DNA of 35,811 bases from Pirellulales bacterium (GTDB lineage: Bacteria > Planctomycetota > Planctomycetia > Pirellulales > S012-138), in contig JALCBR010000048.1 of assembly GCA_028066245.1 (NCBI GenBank), positions 1 through 35,811 of the forward strand, written 5' to 3'. How positions within the stretch are numbered: position 1 is the stretch's first letter; every line of letters begins with the position of its first letter. The translations under genes and the position numbers were made by a program. Shown here piece by piece: positions 2,951 through 35,733 of this stretch. The notes below the pieces were generated by a model. The model was not told where the DNA came from and searched no databases. It worked only from the letters and a program-made list of their open reading frames with translations.

Positions 2951-3274
2951 CTAAGAAAGCTTGGCTTCCGCTGTATTTTCGGCGTTCGTCGCGCTTGCGT
3001 CTAACTGAGGAAAGCGATGGCGGAACAAGATCCGTTCAAGCCAGTTAGCTCGCCGTAGGTTGGGATTGTCCACGCTGAGCACGTGGCGCTTGCCGCGGCG
3101 AGTCTGCACGATAATCTCGCCACCAGGCAGCGTGCCGGCGACAATCCAAAACTTGTCGACGACGTACGAGTAGTTGTCACCCTTGCTTGACGGCCGCACA
3201 TTCTTGGCGCGCGTGGTTGGGTGAGGGCTGATTTTGCTTTGTCGGAAGATGAGTCGGTCGCCGGGCGTAAACAT
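2951..3274 (-). CDS. Small hypothetical protein, planctomycete type
   Basis: The 107-residue product has no recognised domain. It opens with MFTPGDRLIFRQSK, followed by a Pro/Lys/Arg-rich stretch, then alternating strands (YSYVVDKFWIVAG, GGEIIVQTRRGKRHVLS) that suggest a small beta-barrel, and a basic segment NLRRANWLERILF. I have the impression that similar short proteins recur in planctomycete genomes, but this is memory, not a search. The start is well supported: GGGAGG sits seven bases before the ATG at 3274. No signal peptide or membrane helix is visible, so it is probably cytoplasmic. It lies downstream of the molybdopterin gene on the same strand, with a 142-base gap that contains a 26-bp palindrome, so it is probably transcribed separately. 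Confidence 0.7.
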   Translation of the reverse strand: MFTPGDRLIFRQSKISPHPTTRAKNVRPSSKGDNYSYVVDKFWIVAGTLPGGEIIVQTRRGKRHVLSVDNPNLRRANWLERILFRHRFPQLDASATNAENTAEAKLS

Positions 3275-3416: not shown

Positions 3417-4463
3417 TCATTCGTTCTGTGTTTTTGCAGCGCTGGCAAGCGAATTTTGGATGAAGTCTTCCTGAATTGGTGTCAGTGCTGTGAGCTGTTG
3501 GCGACCAAATCGAACCGTTGTGTCAATGCGAGCTCCGGTCGAGGCATCCACCGTCACATCATCATTCAAGTCAACAAACGAAGCGCCAAACAATGAAGAT
3601 TTCAGGAAGTTGGCACCGCGCAGGTCGCAGCGCGCAAAGTTGGCTCCTTCCAGATCGGCATCTGCGAGTTGTGCTCCGCGCAGATCGGCTCCCTGTAGCC
3701 GGGCGTTGCTAAGGTTGGCTTCCCGAAAATCAGCGTCGCGAAGGTCACACTCGCGAAAGTCAGCATCGCGTAGCTGTGCGCCAACCGCATTCAACCCACG
3801 TAACTCTCTGCGGGATGCCTCGATGCTCCGCAGATCTCGACCGGAAAAGTCTCGGCTCTCGATAAGCGTCCGTGTTTCCTGCCGCGAAAGATTCGGGGCA
3901 ATGTAACGCTGCTCCCGCCAAGGATCAGCCGTGTTGTGGTATCCCACGTCAGCTTCCCAATAGCCCAAGCGATCTTCGGCAAGCAACTCTATCTTTTCGA
4001 GCCATTTCAAGCTCTTGTAGAAATAGCGGCCGGGAGTCACGATCCGCATCGGACCACCGTGGTCGGTCGCAAGTGGCTTCCCCTCGTAGTGAAGAGCCAC
4101 GAATGCGCCTAGCTCCAATGTGTCTGCCAGCGGCAGAGATGTTGAGTGGTCCCGCTCGCTACGAGCGACGAACGAGACAAAGCCTGCCGCCGTGTTAGGC
4201 CGCACAAACTCCAGTAGGTCCTTGACCAGTATCCCGGAGAACTTTGCTCCCAGTTTGGACCAGCGTGTGACGCAATGAATATCCACAACGAACTCACGTT
4301 GCGGCATAGCCAGCAAATCATCAAGGCTGAACTGTTGAGCATGGGCGACCTCGCCCGAGATCGTCAGTGACCACGGGCGATCATCTTTGCGCGGCGTTTT
4401 CTCGCCTGTGATCGGCCACTTATTCGCGGCCACAAGCTGCTGATTTGCCGGCAGTTTGGACAT
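3417..4463 (-). CDS. Sulfite-oxidase-like molybdopterin protein fused to pentapeptide repeats
   Basis: The 348-residue product combines two domains. Residues about 15-190 match the oxidoreductase molybdopterin-binding domain (PF00174 family): DIHCVTRWSKLG holds the likely molybdenum-ligand Cys64, followed by HGGPMRIVTPGRYFYKSLKW (135-154) and GYWEADVGYHNTADPW (167-182). Residues about 203-298 are pentapeptide repeats of the A(D/N)LxG type, for example LRDADFRECDLRDADFREAN (231-250), predicted to fold as a right-handed square beta-helix. No Tat or Sec signal is visible, so the protein is probably cytoplasmic. The substrate is unknown; no haem or dimerisation domain of a true sulfite oxidase follows the Mo domain. 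I chose ATG at 4463 over the ATG at 4502 because the extra residues look unrelated. No haem or YedZ-like partner gene is adjacent. The domain calls are firm; the function of the fusion is not known. Confidence 0.9.
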   Translation of the reverse strand: MSKLPANQQLVAANKWPITGEKTPRKDDRPWSLTISGEVAHAQQFSLDDLLAMPQREFVVDIHCVTRWSKLGAKFSGILVKDLLEFVRPNTAAGFVSFVARSERDHSTSLPLADTLELGAFVALHYEGKPLATDHGGPMRIVTPGRYFYKSLKWLEKIELLAEDRLGYWEADVGYHNTADPWREQRYIAPNLSRQETRTLIESRDFSGRDLRSIEASRRELRGLNAVGAQLRDADFRECDLRDADFREANLSNARLQGADLRGAQLADADLEGANFARCDLRGANFLKSSLFGASFVDLNDDVTVDASTGARIDTTVRFGRQQLTALTPIQEDFIQNSLASAAKTQNE

Positions 4464-4737: not shown

Positions 4738-6024
4738 ATGATCGTGGCGAATCGAGCAATTCTCTGGGCGTCAGCCGCCACCGTTTGCGCATTGTTCGCC
4801 GCTGATGACGCTTTGGCAATGGCCGACGACTGGCCGCAGATTCTTGGCCCTTCGCGAAACGGAATCGCCTTGGGTGAATCCATCATCCGGCAGTTTCCCG
4901 ACACTGGGCCGGAGGTTTTATGGTCGCGCTCGGTGGGTAAGGGTGTTGCTGGTGTGGCCGTCGCAGGCGATCGCGTCGTTTTGTTCCATCGTCACAAACA
5001 GGGCGACCGCGCGGAATGCATGGAGAAAGCCACCGGGAACATCCTCTGGCGATCGGACGTCTTTGGAACGCGCTATCAAAGCGCAATCTTGGATGACAAC
5101 GGGCCGCGTTGCGTCCCCGTGATTTCTGATGGCCGAGTCTTTCTGTATTCCGCCAACGGTGACTTGCATTGCCTGAATTTGGAGGATGGCAAGGCACTTT
5201 GGACAAGGCAGTTAGCGGTTGACTACGCCACCAACGCAGAGCTTGGCTACTTTGGAGCAGGTTCATCCCCCATCGTGAGCCAGGGGAAGCTCTGGGTGAA
5301 CCTCGGTGGCGCCCGCGCGGAAGCGGGTATTGTTGCCTTGGATCCTAAAACTGGCGAGACGCTTTGGAAGGGGACACGAGAACAAGCGAGCTATTCATCA
5401 CCTGTCGCAACCAAGATCGATGGCAAGGCCCGGCTGTTGTTCGTAACTCGAATGAATCTCTTGAGTCTTGATCCGGCTACGATGGCGATTGATTGGCGCG
5501 TCCCGTTCGGCCAGCGCGGACCTACGGTCAATGGAGCGAATCCAATCATCAGTGACGACCATGTGTTTGTGACGGCCGCCTATGGAGTTGGCGGCAAGTG
5601 TTTGAAGTTAAGCTTGCAGGAACCAGCGGTGGTGTGGGAAAATGATGATGTCATGTCGAGCCAGTTCACCACGCCTATCGTTATTGGCGGTACTGCGTAT
5701 GGGGTCGATGGGCGACATGACTTGGGTGTTGCCCGATTGCGGTGTTTTAATCCACTCTCCGGCAAGATCTTTTGGACGCAAGAGAACTTTGGCAAGGCGA
5801 CGTTGATCCTGGCGGACGGGAAGTTGCTCGCGCTCACCACGGACGGCAAGCTCGTAATCGCTGAACCGGATCAGGCAGCATACCGCGAACTGGCTGCGGC
5901 CAAGGTCATGGACTCTCGGTGCTTGGCCTTACCAGCACTGAGCGGAGGGCTGTTTTTCGTTCGCGACCAGAATCAGCTCAAGTGCCTGGATCTCCGCCCT
6001 GGGAAGCCTGATCTCATTCCTTAG
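4738..6024 (+). CDS. Exported PQQ-type beta-propeller protein (BamB/alcohol dehydrogenase-like repeats)
   Basis: The 428-residue product begins with a Sec signal (MIVANRAILWASAATVCALF, cleavage probably after ALA near residue 27) and then WPQILGPSRNGIA, the usual opening of planctomycete propellers of this class. Repeats with the tryptophan-docking pattern follow: GNILWRSDV, GKALWTRQL, GETLWKGT, AIDWRVPF and GKIFWTQE. This indicates an eight-bladed PQQ-like propeller. The family includes BamB and quinoprotein dehydrogenases, but no catalytic calcium or disulfide motif of the enzymes is recognisable, so a structural or binding role in the periplasm is more likely. The start is supported by AAGGGAG four bases before the ATG and a candidate promoter upstream. 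It is divergent from the molybdopterin gene, and related in type to the protein at 19004-20308. Confidence 0.85.
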   Translation: MIVANRAILWASAATVCALFAADDALAMADDWPQILGPSRNGIALGESIIRQFPDTGPEVLWSRSVGKGVAGVAVAGDRVVLFHRHKQGDRAECMEKATGNILWRSDVFGTRYQSAILDDNGPRCVPVISDGRVFLYSANGDLHCLNLEDGKALWTRQLAVDYATNAELGYFGAGSSPIVSQGKLWVNLGGARAEAGIVALDPKTGETLWKGTREQASYSSPVATKIDGKARLLFVTRMNLLSLDPATMAIDWRVPFGQRGPTVNGANPIISDDHVFVTAAYGVGGKCLKLSLQEPAVVWENDDVMSSQFTTPIVIGGTAYGVDGRHDLGVARLRCFNPLSGKIFWTQENFGKATLILADGKLLALTTDGKLVIAEPDQAAYRELAAAKVMDSRCLALPALSGGLFFVRDQNQLKCLDLRPGKPDLIP

Positions 6025-10829: not shown

Positions 10830-11195
10830 GTCTGCGCATCTGGATTCTCAAGAGTGATCAGCTTGCACAGCATTCCGTGGAACGTGTGAAGCAATGCTGG
10901 CGCTGTTCTTTCTCAACGCTGCATCGCGTGCCTTCCAAGCCGACTGGTAAGATGCGGTCGCGGCGTTTTCAAGCCGAGTCAAGCATGCACGTGAGAACGA
11001 ATCTGGCGCGCGGCTGGCAATCGTGTCACATGTTGCCACGTGACCCGTCTTTTTGTGGCTTGATTCCATGAACGTCTCGTGAAATGACATTGCTGGGCCG
11101 ATTGTCCATTCAGTAGGCTGAATGGAATAAATGATCTGCAACGGATTGCTAGCAGCGATTGCACCTCGCGATTGCGCTTCTTTGGGAGTTCCGAC
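10830..11195. other. Intergenic region without a recognised gene
   Basis: About 365 bases between the sigma-factor terminator and the tetrahaem lipoprotein gene. A minus-strand open frame runs through it but has Ala/Ser-rich composition, no ribosome site and no family resemblance, so I do not call it. The notable element is the hairpin at 11105-11126, listed separately. The promoter of the lipoprotein gene is presumably here. Confidence 0.5.
11105..11126. promoter_or_regulatory. Perfect 9-bp inverted repeat upstream of the tetrahaem lipoprotein gene
   Basis: TCCATTCAG (11105-11113) and CTGAATGGA (11118-11126) pair perfectly around TAGG. It sits 69 bases before the start at 11196, a position suited to an operator or a leader hairpin. 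There is no following T-tract, which argues against termination. Confidence 0.4.
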
Positions 11196-13004
11196 ATGCG
11201 GCGCAAACTCGGACACATTGTTTTCGCATCTCTTGGCCTGGCTTTGCTGATCGCAATTGGATGCACGGCCGGAAGTGACGACGTTTCGCAAGCTCCTGCG
11301 AAGGACGGGGACTCCCAGAGCGAAACCGGCCGGTCAGACCAACCTCCATCCACGATGGGCAACGACCAAGGTGGTGCCACAAACCAAAGCGAGCCTATCG
11401 TCAAGGAAGACCCCAGCAAGCTGGCTGGTTTCTTCGATCCGCTGCCGGAAAGCTCAGCCGGAGGCAATGATTCCGACCAGTCCACCAGCGTCGCAAATAG
11501 CGACGGAACTTCCACCCAATTGGATGATCTGGAGGGAGATGGAGGCACCGATGCTGGCGCAGGCAATGTGACCAATCAAGCAGCGACTGGGTCCGCCGAT
11601 GCCGAAACCCACCAAGAAGAAGCGGCCAACGCGATCAAAACAAACGGACCGATTTTTGAAAACTGGCCAAAGCCGAAGTTGGCGATCGTCTTTTCCGGCC
11701 GGCAAAACGGCTACTTTGAACCGTGCGGCTGCGCCGGTTTGGAGAACATGAAAGGCGGCACGGCTCGCCGGGCAACGATGCTCGCCCAGCGCCGGGAAGC
11801 GGGCTGGCCGATTCTGGCTGTGGACTTGGGGAATGTCGTGCGACGTTTTGGCAAGCAGGCGGAGATCAAATCGACCATTACGTTGGATGCTCTGGTCGGA
11901 ATGGGTTATGACGCGCTCGGCTTCGGCCCGAATGACCTGGCCATGCCGCTGGATCATATTCTCTCGGTCGTGGCTGACGATACTCGACCGTTTGTCTCTG
12001 CCAACGTGAAGATTCCGTACCTTGAAGTCCCCAAGTATCGCGTCGTTGAGCGGGGCGGACTGAAGATCGGAATCACCGCTGTGCTAGGCGATGCGGAAGC
12101 CAAGAGCATCAACCAGGAAGAAATCATGATTGCACCAGCGGCCGAAGCGCTTGCCGAACCATACCAGGCATTGCTGGAGGAACAGTGTGACATTCTGCTC
12201 CTTCTGGCTTATGCGGACACAGGTGAAACGGAAGAACTGGCCAAGCGATATCCAAAGTTCACTTTCGCTTCAACGGCCGGCGGACCTGTCGAGCCTCCGT
12301 ATCTGCCCCGAGAAAACAAGGATGTCATTCCCACGATCGTGGAAGTCGGTGAGAAGGGTATGTTCGTCAATGTCGTTGGATTGTTTGACGAGGCCGCCGT
12401 TCCGGTGCGATACCAGCGCGTGCCCATTGACGCGAGGTTTGCGGACGAACCGCGAATGCATCAACTTCTCGTTGAGATGCAAAACCAATACCAACAACTC
12501 GGTTGGGCAGGGTTGGATCTTCGCCCGGTCGCTCACGAGTCTGGCCAGAGCTTTGTTGGCTCAAAAACCTGTGGGGAATGCCACACACGGGCGTTTCGCA
12601 TCTTCAAAGACACCGGCCACGCACACGCCACGGACACACTCGTTCATCTCGAACCGCCCCGGCAATTCGACCCGGAGTGCGTCAGTTGCCACGTGACTGG
12701 CTGGGAGCCGCAAAAGTACTTTCCCTTCGGCGGAGGGTTTACCAGTTTGGACGATACGGCGCATCTGGGCGGTAATGGGTGTGAGAACTGCCACGGCCCT
12801 GGGTCGGATCATGTCCAGGCAGAGGATAACCCAGACGCTGACCCCGAGATGCGCCTGTCGCTACGGAAACTGATGCGGGTCACGCTCGAAGAAGCCAAGC
12901 AGAACACGTGCTTGAAGTGTCATGACTTGGATAACAGTCCGGACTACATCAAGCAGGGCTTTGACGCTTATTGGCCTGCCGTAGAACACTACGGGCGGCA
13001 TTGA
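11196..13004 (+). CDS. Lipoprotein with metallophosphatase-like domain and tetrahaem cytochrome c554-like domain
   Basis: The 602-residue product starts with a lipoprotein signal (lipobox IAIGC, Cys23), then an Asp/Gly/Ser-rich linker to about residue 155. Residues about 160-440 resemble the 5'-nucleotidase/calcineurin-like phosphoesterase fold: LAIVFSGRQNGYFEPCGCAG (Cys177, Cys179), ILAVDLGNVV, YDALGFGPNDLAM, FVSANVK. The usual metal-binding D-x-H and G-N-H-[DE] motifs are altered, so activity is doubtful. The C-terminal third has four CXXCH haem sites at residues 459, 495, 529 and 572, spaced as in the cytochrome c554 family (PF13435). It probably faces the periplasm and carries electrons, but the donor and acceptor are unknown. 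The start is supported by GGGAG seven bases before the ATG; an in-frame TTG lies at 11172. A terminator follows. Confidence 0.88.
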   Translation: MRRKLGHIVFASLGLALLIAIGCTAGSDDVSQAPAKDGDSQSETGRSDQPPSTMGNDQGGATNQSEPIVKEDPSKLAGFFDPLPESSAGGNDSDQSTSVANSDGTSTQLDDLEGDGGTDAGAGNVTNQAATGSADAETHQEEAANAIKTNGPIFENWPKPKLAIVFSGRQNGYFEPCGCAGLENMKGGTARRATMLAQRREAGWPILAVDLGNVVRRFGKQAEIKSTITLDALVGMGYDALGFGPNDLAMPLDHILSVVADDTRPFVSANVKIPYLEVPKYRVVERGGLKIGITAVLGDAEAKSINQEEIMIAPAAEALAEPYQALLEEQCDILLLLAYADTGETEELAKRYPKFTFASTAGGPVEPPYLPRENKDVIPTIVEVGEKGMFVNVVGLFDEAAVPVRYQRVPIDARFADEPRMHQLLVEMQNQYQQLGWAGLDLRPVAHESGQSFVGSKTCGECHTRAFRIFKDTGHAHATDTLVHLEPPRQFDPECVSCHVTGWEPQKYFPFGGGFTSLDDTAHLGGNGCENCHGPGSDHVQAEDNPDADPEMRLSLRKLMRVTLEEAKQNTCLKCHDLDNSPDYIKQGFDAYWPAVEHYGRH

Positions 13005-15233: not shown

Positions 15234-15713
15234 CGTGAGAAACGCCGCGGCAATTCAGTCACGCGTATGCGAAGCGATGAGACCTGCCGACCAACACAAC
15301 ACCCATCAAGGGGATGTTCTCGGGCGCATGCTTAATTCCAATTCTCTAGCAACTGGTTGCCGTCCAACACCTGCACTCCGAGGTTCGCCAACTTTGGCGG
15401 TGGAACGTCAACCAGAGAAGCGATCTCGCGTGACAGCTTTGCTTGCCCTCAACGGAAATTCTCTCTTTGTAGATTCTTCGGCGCGCGTTATGCATTGGAC
15501 TTCTCACCAGAAATTAGGCGGCAAGGATGTCGCCCTGGTTCATGTTCCGCAGTCCCAAGAATGCCGTGGAACACACGCGTTGAGCCGTTTCTGGCCTGTC
15601 GACCGCCGCTTGGATGTCGACGGGCGTTGAAAGATCGGGCACGCTGCGCGGCAGTTTTTGCAACCGCATCGTTGCAAGCGTTGCGCGCTGAATTTGATTC
15701 CAAGGAGGGAATG
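15234..15713. other. Intergenic region before the thioredoxin/trypsin gene
   Basis: About 480 bases. The reading frame of the downstream gene stays open far upstream (from 15357), but that stretch has a Cys/Arg-rich composition unlike a signal or domain, while a strong ribosome site lies at 15702-15708, so it is judged non-coding. A 7-bp hairpin (TTGCAAC 15658-15664, GTTGCAA 15671-15677) lies about 25 bases before the ribosome site. No RNA gene was recognised. Confidence 0.4.
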
Positions 15714-17378
15714 ATGGCAACAATGCAGGCATTGCTCCTCGCTATGGCCGCGCTTGGCCAAGGGGATGAGACGGTCCTGTTGGATTTCACGGCCTCGTGG
15801 TGTGGCCCTTGCCAACAAGTCGCCCCTGTCGTGCATCAGCTTGCTGCTGCCGGATACCCGATTCGCCAGGTCGATATCGACCGTAATCGCGGGCTGGCAC
15901 AAAAGTACGGGATCACGTCCATTCCCTGCTTCGTGATGCTGGTGAACGGAAAAGAAGTCGCCAGAGAGTTGGGCGTTGTCAACACTCAACGCCTGCAACA
16001 GATGATGGCGATGGCGGGCACGGCATCCCGGGATTCTTCCCGCAGCAGCACCAACCTTGCCACAGGCAACAGACCGGCAGCAGGAACAACCGTCGCCAAC
16101 CAATCGCAGAATGGCCAAGATCCCTTCGCACGCGCCCGGCAGGCCACGCAAGGTCTGGCAGCGAACGCCAGTTCGCCTGCGGGTACTTCGGCTTCCATGG
16201 ATCAACGGCTGTTGGCCGCGACGGTTCGTATCAAAGTGGAAGACCCAGATGGATACTCCTTTGGAACCGGGACCATCGTCCACCAAACGGCTGGCAAAGC
16301 ATTGATCTTGACCTGCGCGCATCTGTTCCGGGATTCCCACGGCAACGGAAAGCTCACGCTGGATATGTTTGGCGGACAACGACGTCACGGAGTCCCCGCT
16401 CAGTTGCTGGATTATGATCTGGAACGTGATGTCGCATTGCTGGTGATGGACATCAACGAGTCCTTGCAGGTCGCACCCGTCGGTTTGGCTAGCTACACGG
16501 CGCAGGTTGGCCAACCCATCTTTTCCGTTGGCTGCTCAAACGGTGATGATCCAACCGTTTGGTCAGGGCAGGTGACATCAATCAACAAGTACCTGGGCCC
16601 GCCCAACATCCAAGCGTCCGGGCAACCGCAGCAGGGCCGTTCTGGGGGTGGCTTATTTGCCGCCGATGGTCGTTTGATTGGGGTCTGCAACGCGGCAGAC
16701 CCTAGCGATAACGAAGGGCTCTATGCAGCCCTGGGTTCCATTCATGCATTGCTGACCAAACATGATCTGACCTATGTCGCCAGCGCGAAGGGCCTGCAAC
16801 CGCAGGCCAATGTCACTCTCGCCGAAGCTGGAATGACAAAGGATAACACAGTGGACTCCTTCTCGACTGCTGATCCACAAGCCGTTCCCGAGATGCAGGC
16901 CAACGCTCCCGGTAATCCGTTTACCACCGGCAGCGATGCGATGTTCAGCTTCCCGGGTGTGACCACAGGCATCGCCCGTAACCGCGAAGAATCGAGTGAA
17001 ACGGATTTTGAGGACAGCACAGAAATCATCTGTCTGATTCGCTCCAAACGCAGTCCCACAGGTGCTCCCAAGGTGGTTGTGATCTCTCATGCTACTCCGG
17101 AACTGTTGGAGTGGCTGGCCCAGCAGGGCGGTAGCAGCGGCGAACCACTGCTAACCACGCAAAAAGTTCATCAGGCAAAGCGTCCCCGTCTGTGGGAGCC
17201 TGTTTTCCGGGTGGCGCCTTCTCCCAACGCGTTTTCGCAAACCACGGGCGGTGCGGCTAAATCACAACCAACGGAACCGAAACATCCGCCAAAGATTGCG
17301 TCCGCAGTGACCCCGGGCCAGCGCGATATTCCTTGGCGGCCTGCCAACAAGCTTCCCCAGGTTAAACGCCATCGTTGA
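15714..17378 (+). CDS. Thioredoxin-fold protein fused to a trypsin-like serine protease
   Basis: The 554-residue product starts with a short hydrophobic segment (MQALLLAMAALGQG) and a thioredoxin domain with the active site WCGPC (Cys30, Cys33) and the cis-proline region ITSIPCFVMLVNGKEVA. A Ser/Ala/Asn-rich linker (about 105-165) leads to an S1-type protease of about 200 residues with a complete triad: His203 in ILTCAHL, Asp239 in DLERDVALL and Ser310 in GRSGGGLF. A variable tail of about 175 residues follows, ending in Lys/Pro-rich sequence. No PDZ domain is seen, unlike HtrA. AAGGAGG at 15702-15708 suits the ATG at 15714; ATG 15711 is also possible. If exported, it could couple disulfide handling to proteolysis, but the N-terminus is a weak signal peptide. 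A terminator lies at 17470. Confidence 0.9.
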   Translation: MATMQALLLAMAALGQGDETVLLDFTASWCGPCQQVAPVVHQLAAAGYPIRQVDIDRNRGLAQKYGITSIPCFVMLVNGKEVARELGVVNTQRLQQMMAMAGTASRDSSRSSTNLATGNRPAAGTTVANQSQNGQDPFARARQATQGLAANASSPAGTSASMDQRLLAATVRIKVEDPDGYSFGTGTIVHQTAGKALILTCAHLFRDSHGNGKLTLDMFGGQRRHGVPAQLLDYDLERDVALLVMDINESLQVAPVGLASYTAQVGQPIFSVGCSNGDDPTVWSGQVTSINKYLGPPNIQASGQPQQGRSGGGLFAADGRLIGVCNAADPSDNEGLYAALGSIHALLTKHDLTYVASAKGLQPQANVTLAEAGMTKDNTVDSFSTADPQAVPEMQANAPGNPFTTGSDAMFSFPGVTTGIARNREESSETDFEDSTEIICLIRSKRSPTGAPKVVVISHATPELLEWLAQQGGSSGEPLLTTQKVHQAKRPRLWEPVFRVAPSPNAFSQTTGGAAKSQPTEPKHPPKIASAVTPGQRDIPWRPANKLPQVKRHR

Positions 17379-20636: not shown

Positions 20637-21671
20637 ATGGCCAACAACAGATTGCGATGTCATTTGCCAGCACTTGTCGTGGTTCTGATGCTGCTGCCGC
20701 AGCTAGTTGTGAGCGAAGACGCCGCTTCGGCTGATCAGCAGAAAGCCAGCGACGCCGAACACGCGGCCATGCAAGACCAGCAGCCAGTCGAAGCGATGTC
20801 TCTGTTTGGAAAGCCGTTGAGGCGCCGCACATTTTCACCAGAAGAGGCCCGCAAGCTGAAAGAAAACTTGGCCGCCGCGAAGAAGCAGTTCGCCGAAGCT
20901 CCGAACAACCCCGAACACATCATCTGGCACGGTCGACGGCTTGCCTATCTCTGGCGATACAAGGATGCAGTGGAGGTGTTTACGGATGGAATCAAACGGC
21001 ACACCCGTGATCCTCGCATGTACCGACATCGTGGACACCGTTACATCACGCTACGGCAATTTGATAAGGCCGTAGCTGATCTCAAAGTGGCGGCTGAGTT
21101 GATTGCCGGAACCGAGGACAAGGTTGAACCGGATGGACAGCCCAACACAGCGGGCAAGCCCACCAGCAGCTTGCACACCAACATCTGGTACCACTTGGGT
21201 CTGGCGCACTATCTCAATAGAGACTACGAGCAGGCGCTGACCGCCTATGAGAAGTGCCTGGCTGCCGCGCGAAACAACGATATGCGCGTCGCCACGCTCG
21301 ATTGGATGTGGATGACGCTGCGGAAACTGGGCCGCGTTGATGACGCCGCGCAGGCAATCGCCGAAGTCAACGAAGAAATGGAGATTCTGGAGAACCACGC
21401 CTATCACCGGCGTCTACTGATGTATCAAGGTCGACTCAAGCCGGAAGACTTGCTGACCATCGATGACGCTGCAGGAAATGCCAGCGCCCAAACCACGAAA
21501 GCGGCGCTTGACCTGGCGACCTATGGCTACGGAGTTGGTAACTGGTACGCGGTCAATGGGCAGCAAGACAAGGCTGCGCAGATCTTTCGCCGTGTTACGG
21601 CGGGCGAACACTGGGCTGCATTCGGGTTTATCGCTTCCGAGGCCGAATTGAGCAACGCGGACAAAGATTGA
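20637..21671 (+). CDS. Exported TPR-repeat protein
   Basis: The 344-residue product has a clear Sec signal (MANNRLRCHLPALVVVLMLL, cleavage near VVS-ED). After an acidic/Gln-rich spacer it forms helical tetratricopeptide repeats: LAYLWRYKDAVEVFTDGIKR, HRYITLRQFDKAVADLKVAA, LGLAHYLNRDYEQALTAYEK and TLRKLGRVDDAAQAIAEVNE, then a final YAVNGQQDKAAQIFRRVTAG. TPR arrays mediate protein contacts, so this is probably a periplasmic scaffold; no catalytic domain is present. AAGGA nine bases before the ATG and the signal peptide support the start at 20637 over the in-frame start at 20448. The next gene on the same strand begins 177 bases downstream. Confidence 0.88.
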   Translation: MANNRLRCHLPALVVVLMLLPQLVVSEDAASADQQKASDAEHAAMQDQQPVEAMSLFGKPLRRRTFSPEEARKLKENLAAAKKQFAEAPNNPEHIIWHGRRLAYLWRYKDAVEVFTDGIKRHTRDPRMYRHRGHRYITLRQFDKAVADLKVAAELIAGTEDKVEPDGQPNTAGKPTSSLHTNIWYHLGLAHYLNRDYEQALTAYEKCLAAARNNDMRVATLDWMWMTLRKLGRVDDAAQAIAEVNEEMEILENHAYHRRLLMYQGRLKPEDLLTIDDAAGNASAQTTKAALDLATYGYGVGNWYAVNGQQDKAAQIFRRVTAGEHWAAFGFIASEAELSNADKD

Positions 21672-21848
21672 TGAAGTACGGCCGAAGCGCGAAGCGCCGG
21701 GAAGAATCGCTCATGAATACCAGAATTCCCCAAGAATAATGTAAAGATCCACCTAGATGCGGCGAATGCCCGTTTGACGTGTTCTGTTTGATGTTCGCTT
21801 CCCTTGGGGTTCAATCCTTCCCACGCCGCCAACTGGCTGAACCTTCTC

Positions 21849-23138
21849 ATGTCCATCGAATTCCGTTGCCAGGCCTGTCAGCGACTGCTGCATACGCCCG
21901 ACTACGCTGCAGGTGGCCATGCCCGCTGTCCCGAATGCGGCGCTGCCGTTCCGGTCCCTTTGGCCAGTACAAGCCCGGTGGCCAGGGGTGATGATGCAGG
22001 CGCAGCCAGACAAGATGATTCGCGATGGTCGCCCGTTCCTCCCAGCCTCTCGGTCTTGGACCCCAATGCACAGGCGTTGCGGGAGACACCCTCCAAGCAT
22101 GCAGCGGACACAGACTACCCGGTGCGAAAGTCCGACCGGACAAGTGATGGTGAAAACACCTCGCCAGAAGCTCCGCGGTTTGAAACCACACACGCGGCCG
22201 AACGCCCAAAACCTGGCATGATCGAACGGGCTGCGGATGCGGTCACCGAAGCGATTGCCGCCGCCACAGCGGAGGTCGAGCAGGAGGGGGCCAAGTTGCA
22301 TGACCAACAACCGTCGGCTGATGCGCCAGTCGTTTCGGCACAGTTTCCAGCGGTCAATCCTCGTTCCGCGTCTCCGGTTTCGCAGTCACTCTCCACGATA
22401 CAGGTCAGCCCCACGGCACAGACGGGTGTTGCGCCGACTGATGTTGCAGAGCATTGCTGTGTCGAGATCGGCGATATCTTAGGGGCGGCATGGAAATCAA
22501 TGACCGGTAACCTGTTCTCCAGCATCGCCGTTGGGGTTGTCAGTAAGCTCATCTTTGCCGGTGGCGTAGTGGCTGTGGTCTTTTCCATGATCGGCTTGGT
22601 TGAGTTAATCGACACCGGCGGGGATGAGGATGCGTTGATTGGCGCCGTGGGCATTGTTACCGTGTTTGGCGCACTCTTCCTCCTCGTCTCGTGGCTGCTT
22701 TCTGGAGTTTGTCTGTATGCGTCGAATGTTTCGCGCGGACAGCCGTCATCATTCTTGGACTTGTTCCGCGGCGAGCGTTACATGTATCGGATGTGGATTG
22801 CGACGTTGCTATGTCTGCCCGCAATAGCAATTGGCCTGGCCTTCTTTCTTGTCCCGGGCATTGTCATCTTTTTACGGCTTTGCCTGTATCCGTTCTTTAT
22901 TGTCGACCGCGACATGGGAAGCATGGCCGCTTTGCGAGAATCGCATCGCGTTACCGGTCAGCAGTTGGGCAAGATGGCATTGACGTTGTTGATCGCCTGG
23001 GCAATCTGGCTTGTCATCAGCGGGACTGGCGTAGGTGTCTTTGTGGCAACGCCCCTGGTGATCTGGATCTTGGCTGCGCTGTACTTCCGGCTGTGCAATG
23101 AACGCCCAGCCAGCGATGGGCACCCAGTACCGGTCTGA
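21849..23138 (+). CDS. Zinc-ribbon membrane protein with long polar linker
   Basis: The 429-residue protein begins with a small zinc ribbon (Cys7, Cys10, Cys27, Cys30; FRCQACQRLLHTPD, RCPECGA), then a Ser/Pro/Ala/Asp-rich linker to about residue 205. The C-terminal half has five to six membrane segments (about 218-250, 262-288, 310-345, 370-400) with a Gly-rich first helix pair and the motif FFLVPGIVIFLRLCLYPFFI, as in the glycerophosphoryl-diester-like/DUF975-type membrane proteins. The zinc-ribbon plus long linker plus multi-pass arrangement is common in planctomycetes. Function is unknown; no catalytic residue is seen. The ATG at 21849 places the zinc ribbon at the extreme N-terminus; an in-frame start at 21804 would add 15 residues. 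Confidence 0.82.
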   Translation: MSIEFRCQACQRLLHTPDYAAGGHARCPECGAAVPVPLASTSPVARGDDAGAARQDDSRWSPVPPSLSVLDPNAQALRETPSKHAADTDYPVRKSDRTSDGENTSPEAPRFETTHAAERPKPGMIERAADAVTEAIAAATAEVEQEGAKLHDQQPSADAPVVSAQFPAVNPRSASPVSQSLSTIQVSPTAQTGVAPTDVAEHCCVEIGDILGAAWKSMTGNLFSSIAVGVVSKLIFAGGVVAVVFSMIGLVELIDTGGDEDALIGAVGIVTVFGALFLLVSWLLSGVCLYASNVSRGQPSSFLDLFRGERYMYRMWIATLLCLPAIAIGLAFFLVPGIVIFLRLCLYPFFIVDRDMGSMAALRESHRVTGQQLGKMALTLLIAWAIWLVISGTGVGVFVATPLVIWILAALYFRLCNERPASDGHPVPV

Positions 23139-23273
23139 GTAGGTCGAAGCATACTCTTAGCCATAGCAGGAGTGGAACATTTCACCCACTCTTGTATCTT
23201 TGTTTCTATGCTGACTGTTAGCAGACAATGCCCAATCGTCTCGCCCGCTTCTCATTTGAGAATTGAGCACATC

Positions 23274-23870
23274 ATGAAGCGCTACAAGACTGTTGACGAA
23301 TATCTTGACAACCAATCGCAGTGGCAGGAAGAACTTCGTGAATTAAGGGCAGTCGTGCTTTCCACGGAGTTGCAGGAGTGCGTCAAGTGGGGCGCCCCGT
23401 GCTACGAGTTTGACGGCAAGAACATTGTTGGCATGGCTGGGTTCAAGTCGTACTTTGGACTGTGGTTCCACAACGGAGCGTTGCTCAAAGACACTGGGGG
23501 AGTCTTGATTAATGCGCAGGACGGTAAAACCAAGGCTTTACGGCAATGGCGGTTCAAATCCAAGCAGGACATTAAGAAGCGTGCGATCAAAGCCTACATC
23601 AAGGAAGCCATCGAATTGCAGCAGCAGGGCAAGTCCGTCAAGCCCGCTCGCAATGCACCGATTGAAGTGCCTGCTGAGCTGAAGAAAGCCCTTGCCAAGA
23701 ACCGCGGCGCGCAGAAGGCCTTCACCGCGTTGCGTCCCGGCCTGCAGCGAGAATACGCTAACTACATCGCGGAGGCCAAACGAGACGAAACAAAGCTTAA
23801 GCGTGTGGGGAAGATCTTGCCGATGATTCTCGACGGCATCGGTTTGAACGATAAGTACCGTAACTGCTAG
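23274..23870 (+). CDS. DUF1801/YdeI-like protein
   Basis: A 198-residue soluble protein. The N-terminal half resembles DUF1801 (MKRYKTVDEYLDNQSQWQEE, then CVKWGAPCYEFDGKNIVGMA and FGLWFHNGALLKDT). The C-terminal half has the YdeI/OmdA-type helices (VPAELKKALAKNRGAQKAFT, RPGLQREYANYIAEAKRDET, LKRVGKILPMIL). YdeI-family proteins have been tied to metal and cationic-peptide resistance in some bacteria, but this member's role is inferred only from family membership. ATG 23274 is chosen because the domain begins there; the upstream open frame is not domain-like. Confidence 0.88.
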   Translation: MKRYKTVDEYLDNQSQWQEELRELRAVVLSTELQECVKWGAPCYEFDGKNIVGMAGFKSYFGLWFHNGALLKDTGGVLINAQDGKTKALRQWRFKSKQDIKKRAIKAYIKEAIELQQQGKSVKPARNAPIEVPAELKKALAKNRGAQKAFTALRPGLQREYANYIAEAKRDETKLKRVGKILPMILDGIGLNDKYRNC

Positions 23871-32411: not shown

Positions 32412-33030
32412 CGGGATCTCCAGAGTGTTTGTATATCTCGCCAATTCCCGCGATCAGAACTGCACGCAGACTGAACGGTGAGCAGCATGTTGAAAACGCC
32501 ATCTCAGCGTTCTCAGCCCGAGCCGGACGTGGAAACAAGGCCCACGACTGCGGCACTTCGTAGGACGACTTGAACCCCTGCCTTGATTACGAAGCCGGTT
32601 GTTAACCACTGGCTGCTCAACCTGACGCTCCCCTTCTTCTCATGGAATGCAGGCGGCTTTGAGCGAGTCTAGGTGCTTACTATTGACCCCTGCGCGGCGA
32701 ATGGCCTTCGTGGAAGGGCGATTATCCCGCGAAATGCGAGCAATGCCAGCACGGTGTCAGAGCCAATGGCCGCGCAGGGGTCAATAGCATTGATTCAACG
32801 GCATGCCACTGTCACCAAAACTACACTCAGCTAGCATTAGACTTTACGCCCTCAGAAAACTCCTAGTCAACTTCGGAACCGGATTAATCGCTAAAGTCAC
32901 TGTGACCGGAACTCCGAGCTTTTTCTACAGAGGCCCTCGCTCCAGGTGCGCGGAGGGTCGATTTGCCCGAGTGGTTCAGGCGGCAACGGGCGAAGTGCTG
33001 TTCGAGCATTTCAGTTGGGAGGGGGGGCCG
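32412..33030. other. Divergent intergenic region containing an inverted-repeat element
   Basis: 619 bases between the M49 peptidase gene and the TolC gene. Apart from the element at 32680-32787, I see no RNA gene or promoter that stands out. The TolC frame remains open back to 32803, but the strong ribosome site and lipoprotein signal at 33031 argue against that extension. Confidence 0.45.
32680..32787. mobile_element. TA-flanked MITE-like inverted-repeat element
   Basis: CTATTGACCCCTGCGCGGC (32680-32698) and GCCGCGCAGGGGTCAATAG (32769-32787) are perfect 19-base inverted repeats enclosing 70 bases. TA dinucleotides sit just inside the outermost base on both sides (32681-32682, 32785-32786), which would match a TA target duplication as made by IS630/Tc1-mariner-type transposases with 16-base ends TTGACCCCTGCGCGGC. 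The interior has small hairpins but no gene. The copy count in the genome is unknown; a long transcription-control hairpin is the alternative. Confidence 0.5.
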
Positions 33031-35733
33031 ATGAGGCCAGATAGAACTTTGCGTATGCCTTGGGTGGCTGCGTTTGTGGCGTTGAGTTTTGCCATTGGTT
33101 GCAGCCGTGCGCACTACTTTGATGAAGCCGACCGTGAAGTCGCGCGGATCATTGCGCAAAAATCGGAAGACCCCAATTGGGCGGCATACGGCTTCGGCAT
33201 CGAACTCGATCCGCGCAGCCGGTACTTCGACCCTTATAGCGAAATCACTCCCCCGATGCCGGAGGATGATCCAGACTCGCATGCGCTGATGCATTGCTTG
33301 GACTGCAAAAAAGGAGCTCCCTGCTGGCATCGCAATGGCGAACGCTCCGAGCTGGAAAACCCCAGCTGGCGAGAGCAATTGGGCACCTATGTCGATTTGA
33401 CTGATGATGGAAAGATCCTGCTTGACCTGGATTCCGCGATGCGGATCGCCAGGATTCATTCCACGGACTACCAAAGCCAATTAGAGACGCTGTATCTTTC
33501 CGCAGTCGACGTCAGCACAGAGCGATTCCGTTTTGACGTGCAGTTCTTTGGCGGCAACGACACCTTCTACACTCACAATGGCCGCCTGCGGTCGGGCGCT
33601 GGCGAGACCAATACGCTGACCACGGATACAGATTTCCAACTGCGAAGACGCCTAGCAACCGCAGGCGAACTACTGGTGGGCTTTGCTAACTCGTTCGTCT
33701 GGCAATTTGCTGGGCCTGACACGAACTCCACGATGTCGCTGATCAACTTCAGCCTCGTACAGCCGCTCTTGCGCACGGGAGGACGGGAAGTTGCTCTGGA
33801 AACGCTGACGATTGTCGAGCGCGGACTGCTGGCCAACTTGCGCGCCTTCGAACGCTTCCGCCAAGGTTTCTATACCGAGTTGGCGGTCGGCGTCGGGGGA
33901 GCCGGCGGACCACAGCGTCGAGGTGGGTTCTTTGGAGGAACCGGCCTGACAGGTTTCACCGGTCAAGGTGCCGGGGGGATCGGCGGCGTTGGCGGAGGAA
34001 CGTTTGGCGGGGGTGGCGGTTTTGGAGGCGGAGGAGGAACCGCGGGAGCGGGCGGATTCACCGGAGGTGGAGCTGGCACCGTGGGCGGATTCATCGGTCT
34101 GCTGCAATCTCTGCAAAACCTCCGCAACCAGAGGGATAGTCTGGACCTGCAATTGCAATCATTGGGTCAATTGGAATCTCTGTTGGAAGGCGGTCGCATT
34201 GATTTGCCGCAGGTGGAGGAGTTCCGCCAACGCATCGAGACCAACCGGGCTTTGTTGCTGCAAAACCAAAATGGCTTTCAGTCCACGTTGGACGGGTTCA
34301 AGACCAGCGTCCTGGCCTTGCCGCCGGATGTGGAATTCGAGCTTGATGATGCTTTGATTCAGCAATTCCAGTTCATTGATCGTCAGGCGGTCGAAGTCCA
34401 GAACGACCTCGCCATCTTAAGGTCTGAACTCGGAGACTTGCCGGAAGACGCTACGCTTGACATGCTCCGTCCGATGGTCGAACGAGCCACCGCGCTCTTT
34501 GACCGGGTCGACGCGTACCTGGTGAGCGTACCACAAGACTTCACAACACTGCGGCAATCCATCCCCTTGCGGATGGATCTGATGACCGCGGATGAACAGG
34601 CGGAACTGGAAGGCGCTATTGAGAGTAACGTCTTTGGCAATTGGGAGACAGACGTTGTCCAAGTGTATCCGGAACTTCAGCCAGGGTTGGAGATGGTGGA
34701 CTTGGCCTTGGCGTCCAATGACCCCGAAGGCACGTTCAATCAACTCGTCATTTGGCTGGGGAACCTCAATGGCTTGCTCAACCGCGCCACGCTCGTCCAA
34801 GCCCGGGCGAGAGTTGAATCCGTCGTACTGAAGCCGCTTGAGATCGAACCAGAAGTCGCTTTGGAGATCGCGCGCGCCAATCGACCTGACTGGGCCAACA
34901 ACCGCGCGTCACTGGTCGATACTTGGCGGCTAATCACGTTCAACGCCAACGCGTTACAATCTGACGTCGATATCGTCTTCAGTGGAGATATCCGCACGCA
35001 AGGGAATAATCCCGTGGCGTTTCGCGGACCAACGGGCACATTGCGGGCTGGCGTTCAGTTTGACGCGCCCTTCACGCGGCTCTTGGAACGCAACAATTTC
35101 CGTCAAGCGTTGATCGATTATCAACAAGCGCGACGACGCATCATTCAATTTGAGGACGGAGTGCACTCCAGTATGCGGGCTGCCGTACGGCAACTCAAAG
35201 AGTTGGAGGTGAACATGGAGATCCAACGACGCGCGGCCATCATTGCCATCCGCCGTGTTGACCTGACACGTGAAGACCTCAATCGCCCGCCGGGACCATC
35301 GGAGCCAGGCGTCGCCCCGGCGACGGACCCCACAGCGGCACAACGCCTTCAAGATGCCATTACGGACCTGGGCGGATCACAGAATGATTTTATGAGTGTT
35401 TGGCTCAACCATTATGCCGTTCGCATGCAACTCGTTCGTGATCTCGGCATCATGGAGCTTGATGAGAATGGCATGTGGATAGATCGCCCGCTGGAATTCG
35501 CTACGTTGGAGGAAATGCGGCAAATGGAATTGGAAATCCACTGTCTGCCACCGGATGTTCCACAAGAATGGTTTGATTTGGTGCCGGAGGAACTCCCCGC
35601 GGATATCCAGACAGAAACGCCTGACAAAACGGTGAGCACAGAAAATCTGACTACAGGCCATCGAACTTCGTCAGAGCTGCCACCGTTGGCGACTCCACCT
35701 GTGGTTCAAGCATTGGGAGCGACTGACAACTAA
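33031..35733 (+). CDS. TolC-family outer-membrane efflux lipoprotein with glycine-rich and helical insert
   Basis: The 900-residue product has a lipoprotein signal (lipobox FAIGC, Cys24), a Cys-containing N-terminal segment (HCLDCKKGAPC near residues 88-98), and the first outer-membrane-efflux (OEP) helical region from about 125 (LDLDSAMRIARIHSTDYQSQ). A 70-residue Gly-rich stretch (287-356) and a long coiled-coil region interrupt it; the second OEP half (PEVALEIARANRPDWANNRA, FSGDI) starts near 605. Typical TolC proteins are about 450-500 residues, so this form is nearly double. It probably forms a trimeric channel with a bound lipid anchor. GGAGGGGGGG before the ATG at 33031 sets the start. 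Genes for a membrane fusion protein or ABC exporter often follow such genes, but the window ends 78 bases downstream. Confidence 0.88.
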   Translation: MRPDRTLRMPWVAAFVALSFAIGCSRAHYFDEADREVARIIAQKSEDPNWAAYGFGIELDPRSRYFDPYSEITPPMPEDDPDSHALMHCLDCKKGAPCWHRNGERSELENPSWREQLGTYVDLTDDGKILLDLDSAMRIARIHSTDYQSQLETLYLSAVDVSTERFRFDVQFFGGNDTFYTHNGRLRSGAGETNTLTTDTDFQLRRRLATAGELLVGFANSFVWQFAGPDTNSTMSLINFSLVQPLLRTGGREVALETLTIVERGLLANLRAFERFRQGFYTELAVGVGGAGGPQRRGGFFGGTGLTGFTGQGAGGIGGVGGGTFGGGGGFGGGGGTAGAGGFTGGGAGTVGGFIGLLQSLQNLRNQRDSLDLQLQSLGQLESLLEGGRIDLPQVEEFRQRIETNRALLLQNQNGFQSTLDGFKTSVLALPPDVEFELDDALIQQFQFIDRQAVEVQNDLAILRSELGDLPEDATLDMLRPMVERATALFDRVDAYLVSVPQDFTTLRQSIPLRMDLMTADEQAELEGAIESNVFGNWETDVVQVYPELQPGLEMVDLALASNDPEGTFNQLVIWLGNLNGLLNRATLVQARARVESVVLKPLEIEPEVALEIARANRPDWANNRASLVDTWRLITFNANALQSDVDIVFSGDIRTQGNNPVAFRGPTGTLRAGVQFDAPFTRLLERNNFRQALIDYQQARRRIIQFEDGVHSSMRAAVRQLKELEVNMEIQRRAAIIAIRRVDLTREDLNRPPGPSEPGVAPATDPTAAQRLQDAITDLGGSQNDFMSVWLNHYAVRMQLVRDLGIMELDENGMWIDRPLEFATLEEMRQMELEIHCLPPDVPQEWFDLVPEELPADIQTETPDKTVSTENLTTGHRTSSELPPLATPPVVQALGATDN

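Follow-up and report, generated by a model that had tools for sequence, protein, structure and literature searches.

Does a frame that runs from a sulfite-oxidase-type molybdenum (Mo) domain into pentapeptide repeats encode one conserved kind of enzyme, and what would such an enzyme do? The question is raised by a gene in the window, which is the whole 35,811-nt stretch analysed, contig JALCBR010000048.1 of a Pirellulales bacterium. Translation of the minus strand gave a stop-free ORF (Table 1), and a GGAG-like ribosome-binding sequence could be read by eye immediately 5' of its ATG. Pfam analysis placed PF00174 at residues 23–169 (E 7.9e-35, 120 bits, curated cut-off 24) and PF00805 in two stretches, with repeats at about 205–299 (E 1e-19, 70 bits, curated cut-off 20.2). 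The motifs HGGPMRIV and GYHNTADPW were located at residues 135–142 and 174–182. The earlier note had described Cys64, these two motifs and about 95 residues of repeats in a single frame, and all were found where it had placed them. It had also proposed a domain and structure analysis of the InterPro/AlphaFold type as a check; besides the Pfam matches, AlphaFold with a 48-sequence alignment produced a confident two-domain model (mean pLDDT 95.7, pTM 0.90). The fold-and-fusion part of the reading is nearly certain, with the predicted fold family resting on sequence and model together.

Table 1. Coordinates of the fused gene and its features in the window
Feature	Position	Strand	Remarks
Whole gene (P0001)	3417..4463	-	348-aa SUOX-fold domain + pentapeptide-repeat protein; ATG at 4463
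Sulfite-oxidase-type Mo-pyranopterin domain (PF00174)	3894..4463	-	Residues 1-190; Pfam and fold matches
Cys64 codon, putative Mo ligand in HCVTRWS	4272..4274	-	52/52 fused proteins; aligned with MsrP cysteine
His106 codon, clade-diagnostic	4146..4148	-	His in 36/36 fused vs Tyr in 12/12 single-domain relatives
Tyr175 codon, aligned with SorA Tyr236	3939..3941	-	Profile alignment; Tyr in 52/52
Right-handed quadrilateral beta-helix	3567..3851	-	Residues 205-299; 19 pentapeptides, about 5 coils
Conserved outward face	3648..3770	-	Arg/Lys232, Asn250, Ser/Thr252, Asp270, Glu272
C-terminal helices, rod-end cap	3423..3503	-	Residues 321-347; conserved L327xxxQ331

In the window, the fused gene lies between a small unassigned ORF (2951–3274, minus strand) and a divergent PQQ-propeller gene (4738–6024, plus strand). 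Other plus-strand frames of the window were a 507-aa frame at 54–1577 with a hydrophobic N-terminal half, a Lys/Arg/Glu-rich low-complexity tail and no Pfam match; a 610-aa frame at 11172–13004 with a cytochrome c554-type domain near the C-terminus only; a frame at 15357–17378 combining thioredoxin and trypsin-like peptidase domains; and a 976-aa frame at 32803–35733 with no Pfam match at E 1e-5.

A GTDB genome scan returned 80 relatives, 35 of which (L004–L038) carried pentapeptides, and this set was combined with the loci from a separate genome search into an alignment of 52 distinct fused proteins. Cys64, Arg140, Lys150, Ser151, Lys153, Tyr175 and His176 were invariant in all 52. At three sites the fused proteins (n = 36) and the single-domain relatives (n = 12) were fully separated, His106/Ser109/Tyr149 in the former standing against Tyr/Asn/Trp in the latter. 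Structural comparison of the Mo domain gave SoxC (2xts) as the best VIA match (Z 22.0, rmsd 3.2, 177 aligned), and further matches included SorA and sulfite oxidases. The Cys64 domain would be loaded with cofactor. MoaA, MoaE and MoeA were encoded in the window's genome, and MoaA was found in 33 of 35 fused-gene genomes of the order and in 23 of 25 sampled non-carriers; the presence of MoaA is therefore a matter of consistency only and does not discriminate carriers from non-carriers. One carrier genome, G489 (96% complete), gave no MoaA match. Two further PF00174 proteins of the window's genome (G000:C81:22750–23214 and G000:C135:11335–11736, the second of them short) had no pentapeptide arrays.

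No signal peptide or twin-arginine leader was seen at the N-terminus of the 348-aa protein, and none was evident on inspection of its relatives, the nearest single-domain ones included; L034 was the only relative with an RRx[FIL] match, and it had no strongly hydrophobic stretch. The earlier note had likewise seen no signal peptide and had called the site of action cytoplasmic, unlike most relatives. That contrast stands against MsrP and the sulfite dehydrogenases but not against the nearest relatives, which are also leaderless. The SUOX family comprises three groups, the third consisting of uncharacterised single-subunit cytoplasmic enzymes from environmental bacteria and archaea (PMC7759655). 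Of the traits of group 2, the C-terminal dimerisation domain was not found by Pfam, pentapeptides occupying its place, and the CxGNRR loop was absent, the sequence there being CVTRWS; in NCBIfam, the Mo domain scored below the cut-offs of the sulfite dehydrogenase and oxidase models. By sequence, the fused clade would fit as a new architectural variant within the third group, to which the single-domain relatives can be provisionally assigned from the group's description. A literature search covering few subscription papers found neither a description of the architecture nor a characterised enzyme having it, as the earlier note had supposed; searches that paired sulfite oxidase with YuiH or with planctomycete C1 genes returned nothing on the fused protein.

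DSSP analysis of the model showed one bridge per five residues from 205 to 295 across the roughly 95 residues of pentapeptides, followed by helices at 321–325 and 329–347, where Leu327 was kept in 52/52 and Gln331 in 51/52 fused proteins. Among the pentapeptide proteins matched by the rod was AT2G44920 (structure 3n90: Z 18.5, rmsd 2.7, 134 aligned). In NCBIfam the rod fell below every pentapeptide equivalog cut-off, the Qnr/MfpA family models giving 20–35 bits against cut-offs of 240–500. One face of the helix (230/232, 250/252, 270/272, 290/292) had a mean entropy of 1.14 bits vs 2.25–2.65 on the remaining faces (p 0.0025 by permutation, from column shuffles uncorrected for kinship), with Arg/Lys232 and Asn250 in 52/52 and Asp270 and Glu272 in 50/52 of the fused set. 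So strongly conserved a face probably marks a fixed contact, whose other side would be the protein's own catalytic domain, another subunit or a redox partner. The suggestion that the beta-helix may dock the oxidoreductase was thus strengthened by the single conserved face. The other role known for such helices, DNA mimicry, is disfavoured: DNA-mimic rods are strongly negative, whereas the rods of the fused proteins were near-neutral, with net charges of -9 to +6 around a mean of -2.7, and short, at about five coils.

Our tentative reading, to which we give a little less than an even chance, is that the protein is a group 3 enzyme of the cytosol that carries out Mo-dependent oxo transfer on sulfite or an S-oxide, the rod replacing the dimerisation domain. 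The catalytic domain would hold the Mo-pyranopterin cofactor through Cys64 and would take an oxygen atom from, or pass one to, a small sulfur compound, for example sulfite or an S-oxide. A rigid five-coil beta-helix with its C-terminal helix cap would stand in place of the dimerisation domain of sulfite oxidase, and the conserved face would make a docking or dimerisation contact. We infer the chemistry, the substrate, the role of the rod and a link to formaldehyde metabolism alike.

A rather unlikely alternative is a cytosolic reductase of methionine sulfoxide or another S-oxide, with MsrP-like repair activity and a rod that recognises damaged proteins or the electron donor. MsrP was the top Foldseek match (1xdq in the structural comparison: Z 19.5, rmsd 2.6, 177 aligned) and the NCBIfam model with the highest score for the Mo domain. 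Profile alignment to solved structures set Cys64 on the MsrP cysteine, and the Cys loop, HCVTRWS, shared the CVxxWS pattern of MsrP (RCVEAWS) and was further from that of sulfite oxidase (CAGNRR). The CxGNRR loop is that of animal and plant sulfite oxidase and includes a second active-site arginine; because this arginine is replaced in CVTRWS, sulfite is not assured as the substrate. Against the repair enzyme, the MsrP model reached only 66.7 bits, far below its cut-off of 207, no leader peptide was present, no MsrQ-type membrane cytochrome was identified among the neighbours scanned, and Tyr175 aligned with the tyrosine of a sulfite dehydrogenase, SorA. On the score and the missing leader, identity as MsrP proper was rejected; MsrP is an exported enzyme whose partner is the membrane cytochrome MsrQ (PMC7759655).

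The gene neighbourhoods were compared among the fused loci. In relatives, a fae gene (PF08714, E about 1e-73) and an mtdB-type gene (PF09176) lay immediately upstream on the same strand; in GC-rich loci genes were called by codon-position composition, as shadow ORFs otherwise hide fae. These are the tetrahydromethanopterin formaldehyde genes, the mtdB product being methylene-tetrahydromethanopterin dehydrogenase. By tblastn, fae and mtdB were present at 18 of 61 fused loci, or about 17 of 60, because L182 and L018 come from one genome. In the sample of the order, mtdB lay within about 2 kb in 15 of 35 carriers vs 0 of 21 single-domain homologues with a listed mtdB position (Fisher p 0.0003, uncorrected for relatedness), the 15 linked carriers representing six family-level groups. 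An ATP-grasp gene was divergently upstream at about ten of the fae-mtdB-linked loci. No such linkage was seen at the fused-gene loci examined outside planctomycetes. In the window's genome the two are unlinked, the fused gene being on contig C74 and fae-mtdB on C71 (G000:C71, locus L178; fae and mtdB-type genes at about 21222–22091 and 23011–23505). The link is therefore genuine for a subset of the planctomycetes and is not obligatory. Under the oxo-transfer reading preferred here, the enzyme would probably serve formaldehyde-handling cells, for example by clearing sulfite that arises alongside formaldehyde, because its gene is downstream of fae-mtdB in many planctomycetes.

Other recurrent neighbours were fewer. 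A gene for a Cys/Met-metabolism PLP enzyme adjoined the fused gene at eight other loci, just downstream of it (L006, L007, L010, L015, L016, L023, L168 and L171); in the two scanned, the enzyme was 592–596 aa long, was extended at its N-terminus by about 135 residues and was below every NCBIfam cut-off shown. A gene for the bacillithiol deacetylase BshB1 followed the fused gene at three loci, with an overlap of a few bases in two; the PIG-L deacetylase genes are L012:5144–5860, L022:5246–5974 and L159:5230–5940, the name BshB1 being given by NCBIfam for L159. Across all fused loci, only fae-mtdB (in planctomycetes) with its ATP-grasp gene, the PLP enzyme and BshB1 recurred near enough to be worth naming. 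An operon-encoded fixed redox partner is not supported, as no common partner was identified in the neighbourhoods of the fused loci; fae-mtdB recurs, but it is not an electron-transfer subunit.

That the protein is itself an enzyme of the formaldehyde pathway is unlikely. The substrate of such an enzyme, to be oxidised or cleaved, would be a sulfur-C1 compound, candidates including the sulfite-formaldehyde adduct and breakdown products of methanesulfonate, and its rod would dock Fae or MtdB. The position directly 3' of fae-mtdB speaks for it, as does the presence of mtdB in 33 of 35 carriers vs 176 of 262 non-carriers. However, most carriers elsewhere are without this neighbourhood, the window's genome keeps the loci apart, two carriers have no mtdB, and outside planctomycetes no such genes lie near the fused genes. 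A broader version, in which a Mo enzyme type retained in at least nine phyla arose by one old fusion, docks Fae/MtdB by its rod and, where formaldehyde is oxidised, processes sulfur oxyanions set free or trapped along with it, is quite improbable.

There is a slim chance that the same fold serves a non-redox pterin-binding or signalling protein like PruR. PruR structures matched the domain (Z 15.9, rmsd 2.6, 126 aligned), and tetrahydromethanopterin genes are nearby in relatives; but all 52 fused proteins keep Cys64, the Lys/Ser cofactor loop and Tyr175 unchanged, as would suit a catalytic Mo site. The cofactor genes, found in nearly all carriers, were also found in nearly all non-carriers sampled.

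The fused proteins came from at least nine phyla, mostly from planctomycetes: Planctomycetota, Acidobacteriota, Verrucomicrobiota, Pseudomonadota, Chloroflexota, Actinomycetota, Zixiibacteriota, Myxococcota and Fraseribacteriota. MAG contamination is possible in single rows, and the Myxococcota and Fraseribacteriota rows, one MAG contig each and nested among planctomycetes, could be due to transfer or misbinning. Mean identity to the query was 0.53 over the Mo domain, 0.51 over the pentapeptides and 0.19 over the C-terminus, the most variable part; the repeat region 211–296 was nearly gap-free, with a six-residue insert in L019 only. Over the Mo domain, identity was 35–48% for the single-domain relatives, which belong to Paenibacillus, Pseudomonas, Actinomycetota, Rokubacteria and planctomycetes.

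The phylogenetic tree based on the Mo domain only was divided by a single branch (support 100/99), with all 52 fused proteins to one side of it and 29 single-domain relatives, sampled by best score and non-exhaustively, to the other; the root was not fixed, and the branch was recovered in 200 of 200 bootstrap trees. In addition, 297 genomes of the order were searched with the Mo domain alone, which kept the rod from influencing the ranking. The matches fell into two classes. One comprised 35 matches of at least 50% identity in frames of at least 343 aa, except G454, which was ended by a contig edge; the other had 36–42% identity and frames nearly all of 195–304 aa, the outliers being 335 and 416 aa, of which the 416-aa L105 was without repeats. 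One genome, G446, held both a fused and a single-domain homologue. Given the single branch and the two classes of frame length, the sequences are most simply explained by one old fusion that has been kept since.

An origin by chance or artefact, whether through a false join during assembly or through read-through that was accidental and recent, has practically no probability left. No evidence for it was found, in a window that is a draft-genome contig, and it is refuted by 51 other distinct proteins, encoded in independent genomes, in which the junction occupies the same position. The E-values and this conservation exclude a chance combination of the domains. The earlier note had named an assembly chimaera, or homologues made of two separate genes, as what would overturn its reading; the homologues proved to be single-frame, and the junction is kept in the at least nine phyla. 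Judged from these alignments, the fused protein is a member of one conserved clade and no isolated oddity.

Group 3 is without known function, and the fused clade is a sharply bounded subfamily of it, having its own architecture, diagnostic residues and a conserved docking-type surface. Together with the pathway neighbourhood in planctomycetes, these features offer handles for a first group 3 substrate. The clade would also be an example of a redox enzyme with a pentapeptide rod as part of its structure.

Comparison with known systems showed that the fused protein shares with group 3 (PMC7759655) a cytoplasmic single chain with a small Mo domain, while the single-domain relatives provisionally placed in that group lack the pentapeptide domain and have Tyr/Asn/Trp at the three diagnostic sites. 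With MsrP (YedY) it shares the SUOX fold, the Cys-loop pattern and the lack of a dimerisation domain; it differs in having no leader, in scoring below the family cut-off and in its C-terminal pentapeptide domain. SorA, SorT, SoxC and the animal and plant sulfite oxidases have in common with it the SUOX fold, the Mo-Cys and the equivalent of SorA Tyr236, on which profile alignment placed Tyr175; unlike them, it is without dimerisation and haem domains, and its CxGNRR loop is replaced. PruR has the same fold core; it has no rod, whereas the fused protein retains the full putative Mo site. HetL, Alr5209, MfpA, Qnr, Rfr23 and AT2G44920 share with the fused protein the right-handed quadrilateral beta-helix followed by a C-terminal helix; its own rod differs in being only about five coils long, near-neutral and joined to an enzyme domain.
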